Shown piece after piece: positions 1-3,367 of a stretch of 29,276 nt of DNA (position 1 is its first letter; every line of letters begins with the position of its first letter). Under the pieces are notes generated by a model. That model ran no database searches. It saw only the letters and a program-made list of their open reading frames with translations, and had not been told where the DNA came from. This DNA comes from a virus, in IMG/VR virus record IMGVR_UViG_3300010885_050313, positions 1-29,276 of that record, one strand, 5' to 3'. A program made the position numbers and the translations under genes.

Positions 1-7
1 ACAATAT

Positions 8-247
8 GCTTACAACACAGAGGACTTCTCATCCTTAAGACACATAAACTTCAGTTCCCGCACAGCAGTGAGATGGGCTAAGTTATATACAATTTCTCGG
101 AGCTGGAAGTAGAAAGCTGAAGAGTGTGTCTTTTATAGTCAGGTGGTGAAAATATAAGAAACACAAGGACAGCGTAATAGCTTATAAAAAGGTTTCCGAA
201 AAAGTTGCAGGGGTAGTTCCTGCCCTGACTACCATATTTATGTAAGC
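8..247 (+). ncRNA. Candidate structured non-coding RNA with a closed multi-arm fold
   Basis: No convincing gene lies here; the two minus-strand frames look like chance. Complementary segments nest without conflict. A 7-bp closing stem pairs 8-14 (GCTTACA) with 241-247 (TGTAAGC). Inside it are a small hairpin, 21-24 with 32-35, around the 7-nt loop CTTCTCA; a long arm with 37-45 pairing 124-132 (AAGACACA/TGTGTCTT plus one GU) and 49-56 pairing 115-122; and a third arm with 136-143 pairing 224-231 (TAGTCAGG/CCTGACTA). The third arm holds hairpins 153-158/181-186 and 207-211/219-223. GC is 96 of 240 bases by eye count against 45 of 180 over 361-540. A terminator-like hairpin follows at 301-329. 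I could not match it to tRNA, tmRNA, RNase P or intron cores. Pairing was found by eye with no folding energies. The plus strand is assumed from the terminator and the neighbouring genes. Confidence 0.45.
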
Positions 248-300
248 TTGGCCACAAGAATAAATATGACATAAATTCTTAAAGCAGAAAGGTAAGGCTT

Positions 301-329
301 GCCACACAGCGATGAAAGTGTGGCTCTTT
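301..329 (+). terminator. Terminator-like hairpin after the candidate RNA
   Basis: A perfect 7-bp stem GCCACAC (301-307) / GTGTGGC (318-324) has a 10-nt loop and is followed by TCTTTAAATTCTTT, a modest T-rich tail. It is the strongest hairpin between the structured region and the first gene. An ATG at 312 lies in its loop, which argues against that codon being the start of the next gene. A second copy of GCCACA at 251-256 could pair with the same 3' arm, so an alternative fold is possible. Confidence 0.45.
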
Positions 330-341
330 AAATTCTTTAAA

Positions 342-584
342 ATGAAAAAACTAGGAACATTATTTTTAAACAAAGAAGATAGTCAATGGACTGTTAAAGA
401 AAAAATAGGAGAACATGAAATGCTCCATTCACTATATTTTGAAGCTGAATCAGACACTTTTTTATCCTTACTTAAAGATAATTCTAAAGTAATTTTTGTT
501 TTAGTCGATGAATTTTCTAATCCTGAACTATTTAAAAATATTCCCTTTATGGAAGGGAATTACAAAGCTAAATTAATTTTTTAA
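342..584 (+). CDS. Small hypothetical protein (80 aa)
   Basis: Not recognised. A soluble, mixed alpha/beta-looking protein of 80 residues with no signal peptide or membrane segment; hydrophobic strands such as KVIFVLVDEF and AKLIF suggest a compact globular fold. An in-frame ATG at 312 would add ten residues but lies in the loop of the terminator-like hairpin, and its first residues (MKVWLFKFFK) look unlike the rest. The ATG at 342 has the A/T-rich upstream context used by other genes here and is preferred. It is the first gene of the co-directional block. Confidence 0.6.
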   Translation: MKKLGTLFLNKEDSQWTVKEKIGEHEMLHSLYFEAESDTFLSLLKDNSKVIFVLVDEFSNPELFKNIPFMEGNYKAKLIF

Positions 585-601
585 CCTTAAAAATTTACTG
601 T

Positions 602-820
602 ATGAAAGTAGAGATTATTATGAATGGAACTATTAAAATGGTTCACATTCCTGAAAATGAAATGGAAGAAATGGCACTATCAATGATGGCTAAAAACGAA
701 GTAGAAGTTACTTACGTAGATCGTGTTACTCAAATTCTTGATAAACAAGTAGAGAAACATTTAGTTCTTAAACCAAAAACAAGAATGACTGATGAAAAGT
801 ATGAAAAGAAAATTAATTAG
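602..820 (+). CDS. Small hypothetical protein (72 aa)
   Basis: Not recognised. A 72-residue charged protein whose N-terminus looks like a beta strand (MKVEIIMNGTIKMVHIP), followed by a Met-rich helix and a basic tail. The ATG follows an A/T-rich spacer without a Shine-Dalgarno sequence, like its neighbours. Its last 20 bases overlap the start of the TAG-interrupted reading frame at 801. Function unknown. Confidence 0.6.
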   Translation: MKVEIIMNGTIKMVHIPENEMEEMALSMMAKNEVEVTYVDRVTQILDKQVEKHLVLKPKTRMTDEKYEKKIN

Positions 821-953
821 TCATATTGGACATTGCCAATAGGGAATTAAAAATATTCTTCAACATAATCAAAAGTTTTACTACAAAAGAAAAACTTATT
901 ATTTCCGTAAACAGATTGAAATAGCTAACAGATTATTAAAAAAATTAAAATAG
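801..953 (+). pseudogene. Small reading frame interrupted by one in-frame TAG
   Basis: From the ATG at 801 the frame reads MKRKLISHIGHCQ, meets TAG at 840-842, then stays open for 36 more codons (starting GIKNILQHNQ, ending ANRLLKKLK) to a TAG at 951-953. The next gene starts at 955, one base after that stop. Without the internal TAG this is a basic 50-codon protein that exactly fills the gap between two genes, overlapping the previous one by 20 bases as is usual here. The part after the TAG has no ATG of its own. The simplest reading is a nonsense mutation in a small gene. TAG read as an amino acid is possible, since TAG-to-Gln recoding is known in some crAss-like phages, but other genes here end normally at TAG. 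Sequencing error is a third option. Confidence 0.5.
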
Positions 954-954
954 T

Positions 955-1125
955 ATGACACCAAAAGAAAAAGCAAAAGAGCTTGTGTTTAAGAAATTTG
1001 GATGCTCTAAAAGGTATGCATTACTAGCAGTTCATGAGATAATAGATAATTATGAAGAAAGATATAAATATTGTAATAGTAAAATTTATTGGCAAGAAGT
1101 TAAACAAGAAATAGAAAAATTATGA
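955..1125 (+). CDS. Small hypothetical protein (56 aa)
   Basis: A short gene starting at ATG 955 directly after the TAG at 951-953 and ending in a TGA (1123-1125) that overlaps the next ATG (ATGA). The product begins MTPKEKAKELVFKKFGCSKR and ends KQEIEKL. It looks largely helical, with KAKELVFKKF and an aromatic central stretch. This resembles a common short type in phages of Bacteroidetes, beginning 'TPKEKAKELV..F' with a 'YW..VK.EIEKL' ending; function unknown. The start/stop coupling and tight packing support it being real. Confidence 0.7.
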   Translation: MTPKEKAKELVFKKFGCSKRYALLAVHEIIDNYEERYKYCNSKIYWQEVKQEIEKL

Positions 1126-1595
1126 AAGCAAAACTGATTAAGAAAGGAAATGAATACATTCTCAATCCGTCAATAGTTGGTCATAAACTATCCAAACAAA
1201 ACTGTGATGAGATATTCGGAGTATTTGATGTTGAGAAGTTGGCTGAGGAATATTGTATTCATGAACCTAAAAATGTAATAGAATTAAGAGATGTTAATCT
1301 TATTAAGCTAGGTTTTAGAGATGGCTTCAACAAAGCAATGGAGTTGAATAAAGACAAGGTGTTTACTTTGGAGGATATGAGAAAGGCTTATTTTCAAGGA
1401 GATTATGATGCTTTTTTAGAGGGGGGTTATACTAAAAAGGAAAATGATTTTATCCAATCCCTCCAACAACCAACAGAAATTGAAGTTAAGATTGAGATGG
1501 AAGAAGTACAAGAAATATACAGAGATGGAACAGTTAAATGGGAGAGATGCCCAAAACTTGACTCATCAGGGTGTTTAATACTTAAAAAGATTTGA
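1122..1595 (+). CDS. Phage hypothetical protein (157 aa)
   Basis: Uncharacterised. The first part suggests a small beta-rich domain (MKAKLIKKGNEYILN). The middle has a helical segment of the form GFRDGFNKAMELNKDKVFTL (residues 65-84), then a run of helices (DMRKAYFQGDYDAF). The C-terminus has EIEVKIEMEEVQEI and a final strand around LILKKI. From memory, this arrangement (a stretch F..GF..A followed by FTLEDM and a 'QQPTEIEV' region) recurs in uncharacterised phage proteins from Bacteroidetes phages. It overlaps the upstream stop by four bases, and the next ATG follows one base after its stop codon. Function unknown. Confidence 0.75.
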   Translation: MKAKLIKKGNEYILNPSIVGHKLSKQNCDEIFGVFDVEKLAEEYCIHEPKNVIELRDVNLIKLGFRDGFNKAMELNKDKVFTLEDMRKAYFQGDYDAFLEGGYTKKENDFIQSLQQPTEIEVKIEMEEVQEIYRDGTVKWERCPKLDSSGCLILKKI

Positions 1596-2802: not shown

Positions 2803-3054
2803 ATGAAAAAACAAACACCTGTAGAGTTTTTAATAAAAGAATTTAGTGATCTTCTTGGCCCATTAGACACTAAACCAATGCAAGATTTATTAATGATGGA
2901 TTCAATAAAAAGAGCCAAAGAAATGGAGAAAATACAGATAATTGATGCTTATAATGAAGGTGATAATAATGGAGCTGATAGAATTTATTATCATAGTAAT
3001 AGAGATGATAAATCAGCAGAACAATACTACAACGAAACATTTAAATCAGAATAA
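2803..3054 (+). CDS. Small hypothetical protein, KEMEK/NETFKS family, copy 2 (83 aa)
   Basis: A paralogue of the gene at 2378. It has TPVEFLIKEFSDLLG at the start (compare AVEWLENELSRIG), AKEMEKIQIIDAYNEGD in the middle and QYYNETFKSE at the end. The central IIDAYNEGDNNG stretch is an insertion relative to copy 1. The product is acidic and helical with no membrane segment. The conserved tail may be a shared interaction element, but function is unknown. It starts in the GAATAATATG context. Confidence 0.75.
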   Translation: MKKQTPVEFLIKEFSDLLGPLDTKPMQDLLMMDSIKRAKEMEKIQIIDAYNEGDNNGADRIYYHSNRDDKSAEQYYNETFKSE

Positions 3055-3055
3055 T

Positions 3056-3158
3056 ATGAAAGAATACAGAAAAAATGTATAAAATAATATGCAAAAGCAT
3101 ATAAAACAGCCAAAAAGTACAATATAATATGCAAAAACGTATAATATGGGAAAGATAA
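3056..3158 (+). other. Three consecutive mini reading frames (8, 12 and 9 codons)
   Basis: Between the genes at 2803 and 3146 lie ATG 3056 (MKEYRKNV, stop), ATG 3089 (MQKHIKQPKSTI, stop) and ATG 3129 (MQKRIIWER, stop at 3156-3158, overlapping the next gene's start). Each ATG has the same ATAAT-type upstream context used by real genes here. They are too short to call genes and may be leader peptides, decaying starts or chance. The first two are in the same frame as the gene at 3146. Confidence 0.3.
3085..3143 (+). repeat. Two near-identical hairpin-forming repeats around ATG codons
   Basis: ATAATATGCAAAA occurs at about 3085 and again at about 3125. The first copy is a perfect 6-bp inverted repeat (ATATGC at 3087-3092, GCATAT at 3097-3102, loop AAAA). 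The second is a slightly degenerate version (TATGC at 3128-3132, GTATA at 3139-3143). Both place an ATG in a stem just upstream of the gene at 3146, so they could affect its translation. Simple low-complexity duplication is also possible. Confidence 0.45.
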
Positions 3159-3367
3159 TATTAGAGTTTGACTCTGTAGAAGAAGCAGATGAAGCTAAAA
3201 CAGCAGTACAAGCTGGAGATTGGAAACAAGCTATGTGGACTCTTGATCAAAAACTTAGAAGCATAGTAAAATATGGTGGATACAGTGATGAAGAAAGAGA
3301 ATTTGCTGAAAAGTTAAGAGAAGAAATAAGAGAAATATTGAATGATGATGGTTTAAAACTAGATTAA
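3146..3367 (+). CDS. Conserved small phage protein (73 aa)
   Basis: An acidic helical protein: IILEFDSVEEADEAKTAVQA then WKQAMWTLDQKLRSIVKYG and SDEEREFAEKLREEIREIL. The pattern 'alpha-helix with W.LDQ.LR...KY' is, from memory, a widespread unassigned phage family often found near replication genes. The Leu/Arg/Trp pattern suggests a helical bundle. The ATG follows the mini-frame region with only a few bases of A/T. Function unknown. Confidence 0.75.
   Translation: MGKIILEFDSVEEADEAKTAVQAGDWKQAMWTLDQKLRSIVKYGGYSDEEREFAEKLREEIREILNDDGLKLD

Follow-up and report, generated by a model that had tools for sequence, protein, structure and literature searches.

A conserved structured RNA of about 92 nt found between tRNA genes and after open reading frames in crAss-like and other large phages

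Phage T4 makes two small RNAs from its tRNA region, RNAC and RNAD (species 1 and 2 RNAs), which are transcribed in infection and whose roles are unknown (PMC3014915, PMC9697503). They are 139 and 119 nt long and adjoin the phage tRNA genes. GOLLD and ROOL are structured RNAs of phages and prophages, also of unknown function, and they often lie near tRNA islands (PMC12286853). Here we analyzed a 29-kb fragment from IMG/VR (29,276 nucleotides; this whole stretch is called the window), in which positions 8-247 are a structured, non-coding phage RNA region made of three adjacent and separable modules. All of them lie on the plus strand: the 3′ tail of an RNA named module A (12-36), a complete structured RNA of about 92 nt named element B (39-130), and a tRNA-like RNA (137-234). 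The stretch 12-234 is part of an array of RNA genes of the tRNA-array type, and element B is a new and strongly conserved RNA family.

The window encodes a family A DNA polymerase and a 1,665-aa protein which match crAss-like phages, and it comes from a phage of that group. A contig of 91,083 bp (G001) includes the window start without a mismatch (100% identity) and has one more base in front of it. At 88407-88551 it carries a second copy of window 1-146 (99% identical), downstream of which the tRNA-like gene differs from that of the window. Versions of one array locus are present at both ends of this contig, as if two strain variants had been assembled; window 1-1370 is one version, and two genes present at the other end, a second tRNA-like gene and a lysozyme-like gene, are missing from it. 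The modules were delimited by the relatives G003, G004 and G005 along with viral contigs fetched with short core patterns. In G005 the tail of module A joins a tRNA-like gene directly and element B is absent; as the neighbouring modules are kept without it, element B is a separable unit. In two further loci (L154 and L156) the space between module A and a tRNA-like gene is occupied not by element B but by another conserved element, about 200 nt long and beginning CTATTAAAACCAATCCGGTTAAAGG.

A sequence-only reading had taken 8-247 as a single closed cloverleaf-like molecule with a 7-bp closing stem. The match concerned (GCTTACA/TGTAAGC, 8-14/241-247) exists, but its predicted pair probability is 0.05-0.07, and in the sister copy of G001 (88407) the same 5′ arm precedes a different 3′ region. 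In that copy ACAACAC (12-18) pairs with an upstream GTGTTGT, which lies beyond the window edge. The closing stem is a spurious chance match, and since it is unsupported and the partner of ACAACAC is upstream, the region is three modules and not one closed cloverleaf. The other stems of that reading (37-45/124-132, 49-56/115-122 and 136-143/224-231) and its small hairpin (20-24/32-36) are present with predicted pair probabilities of about 0.7-1.0. Its proposal of an independent phage RNA holds in so far as this is real non-coding RNA with conserved stems, but the first arm (37-132) belongs to a stand-alone family and the second (136-231) to a separate tRNA-like RNA; similarly, a 3′ domain of a larger RNA starting outside the window is correct for 12-36 and not for the remainder. 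The supposed terminator is a real 7-bp hairpin with a 10-nt loop (301-324, plus strand; 301-307/318-324) lying outside element B, but its T run is poor, with only TCTTTAAATTCTTT after the hairpin, and it is missing from the output of the terminator scan, whose rule does not extend to a 10-nt loop. An ORF listed at 312-584 has its ATG at 312 within this hairpin, and the ATG at 342 may be its real start.

The contrast in GC content was reproduced (39% in 1-200 vs 25% in 401-600), and the fold of 1-330 was modestly better than shuffled sequence (z -1.86, 3/100). There is no gene here: both antisense ORFs over the region are without a Pfam match, and the conservation sits in base pairing. A coding role was rejected on the lack of families for these ORFs, no conserved protein was found in place of the stems, and compensating changes were found in the relatives. 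The class had not been recognised from the letters, and Rfam 15 likewise gave no family at the gathering threshold for window 1-600; a permissive search of the same stretch gave only a chance match to SNORD57 (E 1.8) outside the element.

Element B is, with little room for doubt, built of a two-part closing stem that carries two hairpins, and the loops of these hairpins kiss through 7 bp. The closing stem P1 has its 5′ strand at 39-56 and its 3′ strand at 115-130, with 39-45 paired to 124-130 and 49-56 to 115-122. Hairpin P2 (57-77) has an invariant stem, 57-59/75-77, and a loop with the kissing strands 63-66 and 70-72, while hairpin P3 (92-110) has the stem 92-95/107-110 and a loop with the strands 96-98 and 102-105; 96-98 pairs with 70-72, and 102-105 with 63-66. 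The junction J2/3 (78-91, 14 nt, CTAAGTTATATACA) and the strand 111-114 (AGAA, 4 nt) are largely invariant in both alignments (A1 and A2) and together form a candidate binding or active site, though the conservation of the core is overstated because the members were retrieved by core patterns and its invariance partly comes from that. Folded alone, 34-135 gave z = -2.95 (1/200 shuffles).

The pairing was analyzed in alignment A1, which holds 31 distinct element B sequences without gaps. Here 95.8% of cells are paired, vs 84% in shuffles and about 40-44% with the partners slid, and 107 cells are double-changed vs 34 in shuffles. Changes on both sides occur in 13 of the 15 pairs of P1. A covariance model (R1) recovers ten divergent members, with scores down to 45 bits, in which the kissing CAGC/GCUG is replaced by CCGC/GCGG or CUG/CAG and the kissing GAG/CUC by ACG/CGU; these compensatory changes indicate that the loops of P2 and P3 pair together. 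In alignment A2 the pair 33/75 (window 64/104) is A-U, C-G or U-A, the pairs 39/69 and 40/68 (window 70/98 and 71/97) change jointly, and double changes are found in one P3 pair and three kissing pairs. We consider this covariation decisive for the pairing of element B. P2 is its least certain helix, because it hardly varies. Wobble pairs give the strand: with two invariant wobbles excluded there are 41 G-U vs 3 A-C cells, and this excess points to the plus strand as the RNA, which is also favoured by the sense orientation of the element relative to its neighbours. The minus strand, which folds with a better z over 34-135 (-4.17 vs -2.95), was rejected because these statistics and the gene orientation favour the plus strand.

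The distribution of element B was followed with a 16-mer of its core, which matched 53 viral contig stretches, 3 of them unrelated (L101, L114, L122). The element is present in about 50 viral contigs and in dozens of large phages, these being crAss-like phages and phage contigs up to 270 kb. Model R1 found it in 27/30 viral records, most of which had been picked for holding the core pattern. It is single-copy in 25 of these 27, and G001, with one copy at each contig end, is one of the two exceptions. The copies are placed in sense, either abutting tRNA genes on both sides or lying a few bases past a stop codon, with no constant neighbour, and about half of them sit after ORFs and not in tRNA arrays. 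Searching 84,980 prokaryote genomes with two patterns gave no element B, nor did BLAST of plasmids or of the cultured phages of INPHARED, and a host or prophage origin was rejected on the genome scans and the plasmid search. Word searches of the open literature, a scope with most subscription papers outside it, gave no description of these elements.

Module A is a phage RNA of wide occurrence whose hairpin loops kiss. Its tail in the window was recognised from the sequence of relatives and from more than 100 copies of the module: ACAACAC (12-18) is the 3′ strand of its closing stem, the 5′ strand being outside the window, and the hairpin 20-24/32-36 has the loop CTTCTCA (25-31), complementary to a UUGAGAA loop beyond the window edge. 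As read from the sequences, the complete module runs from GTGTTGT through a hairpin with the loop UUGAGAA, a variable part and ACAACAC to a hairpin with the loop UUCUCA, the two loops being mutually complementary. A 21-mer scan found it in at least 120 viral stretches (L189-L303 and others), and Rfam gave no match for it. One class of the module is a stand-alone unit and another is embedded in a longer RNA. Such a long version is present in a phage of Crassvirales that has been cultured, Cellulophaga phage phi14:2, where an unannotated element of about 450 nt around the module (L304, about 2912-3362) is a probable structured RNA; its 3′ part recurs between genes in Cellulophaga phages phi4:1 and phi17:2. 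Genes resembling tmRNA were also seen near module A on phage contigs with the Rfam tmRNA model, at L250 180-505 (minus strand, 93 bits), L215 2254-2658 (plus strand, 81 bits) and L253 3380-3774 (minus strand, 38.5 bits, under the gathering score).

The tRNA-like RNA (137-234) was identified from its sequence, its fold and comparison with its family. It has a 7-bp acceptor (137-143/224-230) extended by the pair 136/231, a 3-bp D-stem (146-148/162-164) and a 5-bp T-stem (207-211/219-223) with the 7-nt loop GGTAGTT, and ends in the discriminator A231 and an encoded CCA (232-234). The T-arm abuts the acceptor, and acceptor, D-stem and T-stem stand in tRNA geometry, as on the scaffold of a phage tRNA similar to tRNA-Leu. 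Unlike a phage tRNA, the 137-231 element has no canonical anticodon arm, a T-loop of GGTAGTT and a D-loop without GG. The place of the anticodon and variable arms is taken by 165-206, in which inspection and folding gave no 5-bp anticodon stem with a 7-nt loop and U33, and neither ARAGORN nor Rfam reported the RNA. Two relatives have the same odd type of T-loop, GGCAGYT, and the D-stem compensates, with GUG/CAC in the window vs GCG/CGC. The acceptor is common to a large tRNA-like family with up to 8 members on one locus, whose constant scaffold AGTCAGGTGGCG...ACAGGTTCGAATCCTGTCCTGACTA was seen in L276, L272, L191, L270, L204 and about 75 other loci. Among distinct members having a D-arm and canonical T-loop, a perfect anticodon arm occurs in 2/99 (chance expectation 0.65), and in the other tRNA-shaped genes of the same loci in 347/544. 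The inserts of the family (20-119 nt) group into 84 clusters, of which 75 hold a single insert, and their predicted structure does not exceed that of shuffled inserts (mean z -0.10); they are hypervariable and apparently unstructured segments replacing the anticodon arm. BLAST of the inserts against all fetched loci mainly returned further tRNA-like relatives and no clear target. Many of the phage "tRNA genes" seen in these arrays are RNAs of tRNA shape which do not look able to decode, and this bears on the question why phages carry tRNA arrays. At one locus (L093, 8946-9035) ARAGORN called a tRNA-Pyl(cta); by eye the gene is shorter and its anticodon may be UUA, which makes it a candidate suppressor of stop codons.

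For the role of element B our leading proposal, a tentative one to which we give somewhat under an even chance, is that of a small trans-acting RNA which is cut from the array transcript and binds a partner through its largely invariant junction. The array would be transcribed as one polycistronic RNA that includes the element, and the tRNA-trimming enzymes would free the element wherever its neighbours are tRNAs or tRNA-like RNAs. The released RNA may persist as a stable molecule in which the long closing stem, the two hairpins and the 7-bp loop kiss give a rigid fold presenting the 14-nt and 4-nt junctions, and during infection these would bind one conserved partner in the host, which is probably a member of Bacteroidota; the partner may be a protein or a component of the translation machinery. 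The copies placed after ORFs speak against an origin by tRNA processing alone, and they weigh against the excision step as well because tRNA enzymes cannot free both sides there. The range from crAss-like phages to contigs of up to 270 kb suggests that element B probably does something general.

Single copies with changing neighbours favour trans over cis action, and it is on this point that the proposal of a cis-acting processing or stability element in long phage transcripts, whose knotted fold would stop exonucleases or set the site of cleavage and in this way shield the RNA to one side of it, becomes unlikely. Its attraction is that the element is always in sense inside gene runs, often with the 3′ end of a tRNA or a stop codon immediately upstream, and that the kissing-loop fold is compact, but such an element would be expected in several copies, and nearly all phages hold one with no constant neighbour. 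An anti-defence RNA, acting during infection, with or without module A and the tRNA-like RNA, to decoy or inhibit a nuclease or an RNA-sensing defence of the host, would agree with the phage-only distribution and with the hypervariable tRNA-like RNAs alongside, which vary as decoys or guides might. We regard it as rather improbable, as element B stays highly conserved between phages that differ greatly, which is not typical of arms-race factors, and no defence gene or target was identified. There is a slim chance of a small self-cleaving ribozyme that separates the units of the array transcript: the compact interlocked fold, the conserved unpaired junctions, the variable outer stem and the intergenic position between transcript units fit this, but no ribozyme family of Rfam 15 matched, no cleavage site could be predicted for element B, and the flanking tRNAs already supply cleavage sites. 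The fold of the purine riboswitch is a closing stem with two hairpins whose loops kiss. A metabolite riboswitch of that layout is highly improbable in spite of the common topology and the invariant junction, since the sequence differs, P2 and P3 are very short and J2/3 long, no Rfam riboswitch matched, and the downstream gene varies with context or is a tRNA, so that element B has no regulated gene and no constant position upstream of functionally related genes.

A wider reading is that element B, module A and the tRNA-like RNAs form one phage RNA system, in which the inserts would guide an attack on hosts or rival phages or act as decoys against them, while the invariant RNAs, module A and element B, would serve in processing or as effectors. 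We consider this a long shot; if true, it would mean a protein-independent RNA armoury hidden in phage tRNA arrays. As an RNA family element B is well supported and its kissing-loop fold is defined, and being short and compact it is suited to probing, pull-down and structure work.

Among described RNAs, GOLLD and ROOL are much larger than the modules found here, many GOLLD members exceeding 800 nt (PMC12286853), and their covariance models in Rfam matched none of the modules. The closest to element B by setting and size are RNAC and RNAD of T4, small structured RNAs placed beside tRNA genes as many copies of element B are, flush with theirs. Homology with element B was rejected, as model R1 gave only chance scores on the T4 tRNA region (at most 7.4 bits) and there is no sequence match. 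In the T4 region concerned (L307, 1409-1672, minus strand) a canonical T-arm closes RNAC, as in the tRNA-like RNAs of the array, and RNAD has a short resemblance to module A (UUCCCUGAGUAAGGAA vs UUCCCUUGAGAAAGGAA); RNAC and RNAD may thus be candidate relatives of the phage array RNAs. With T4 RNAC and RNAD, GOLLD and ROOL, element B enlarges the small and unexplained group of structured phage RNAs which neighbour tRNA genes.
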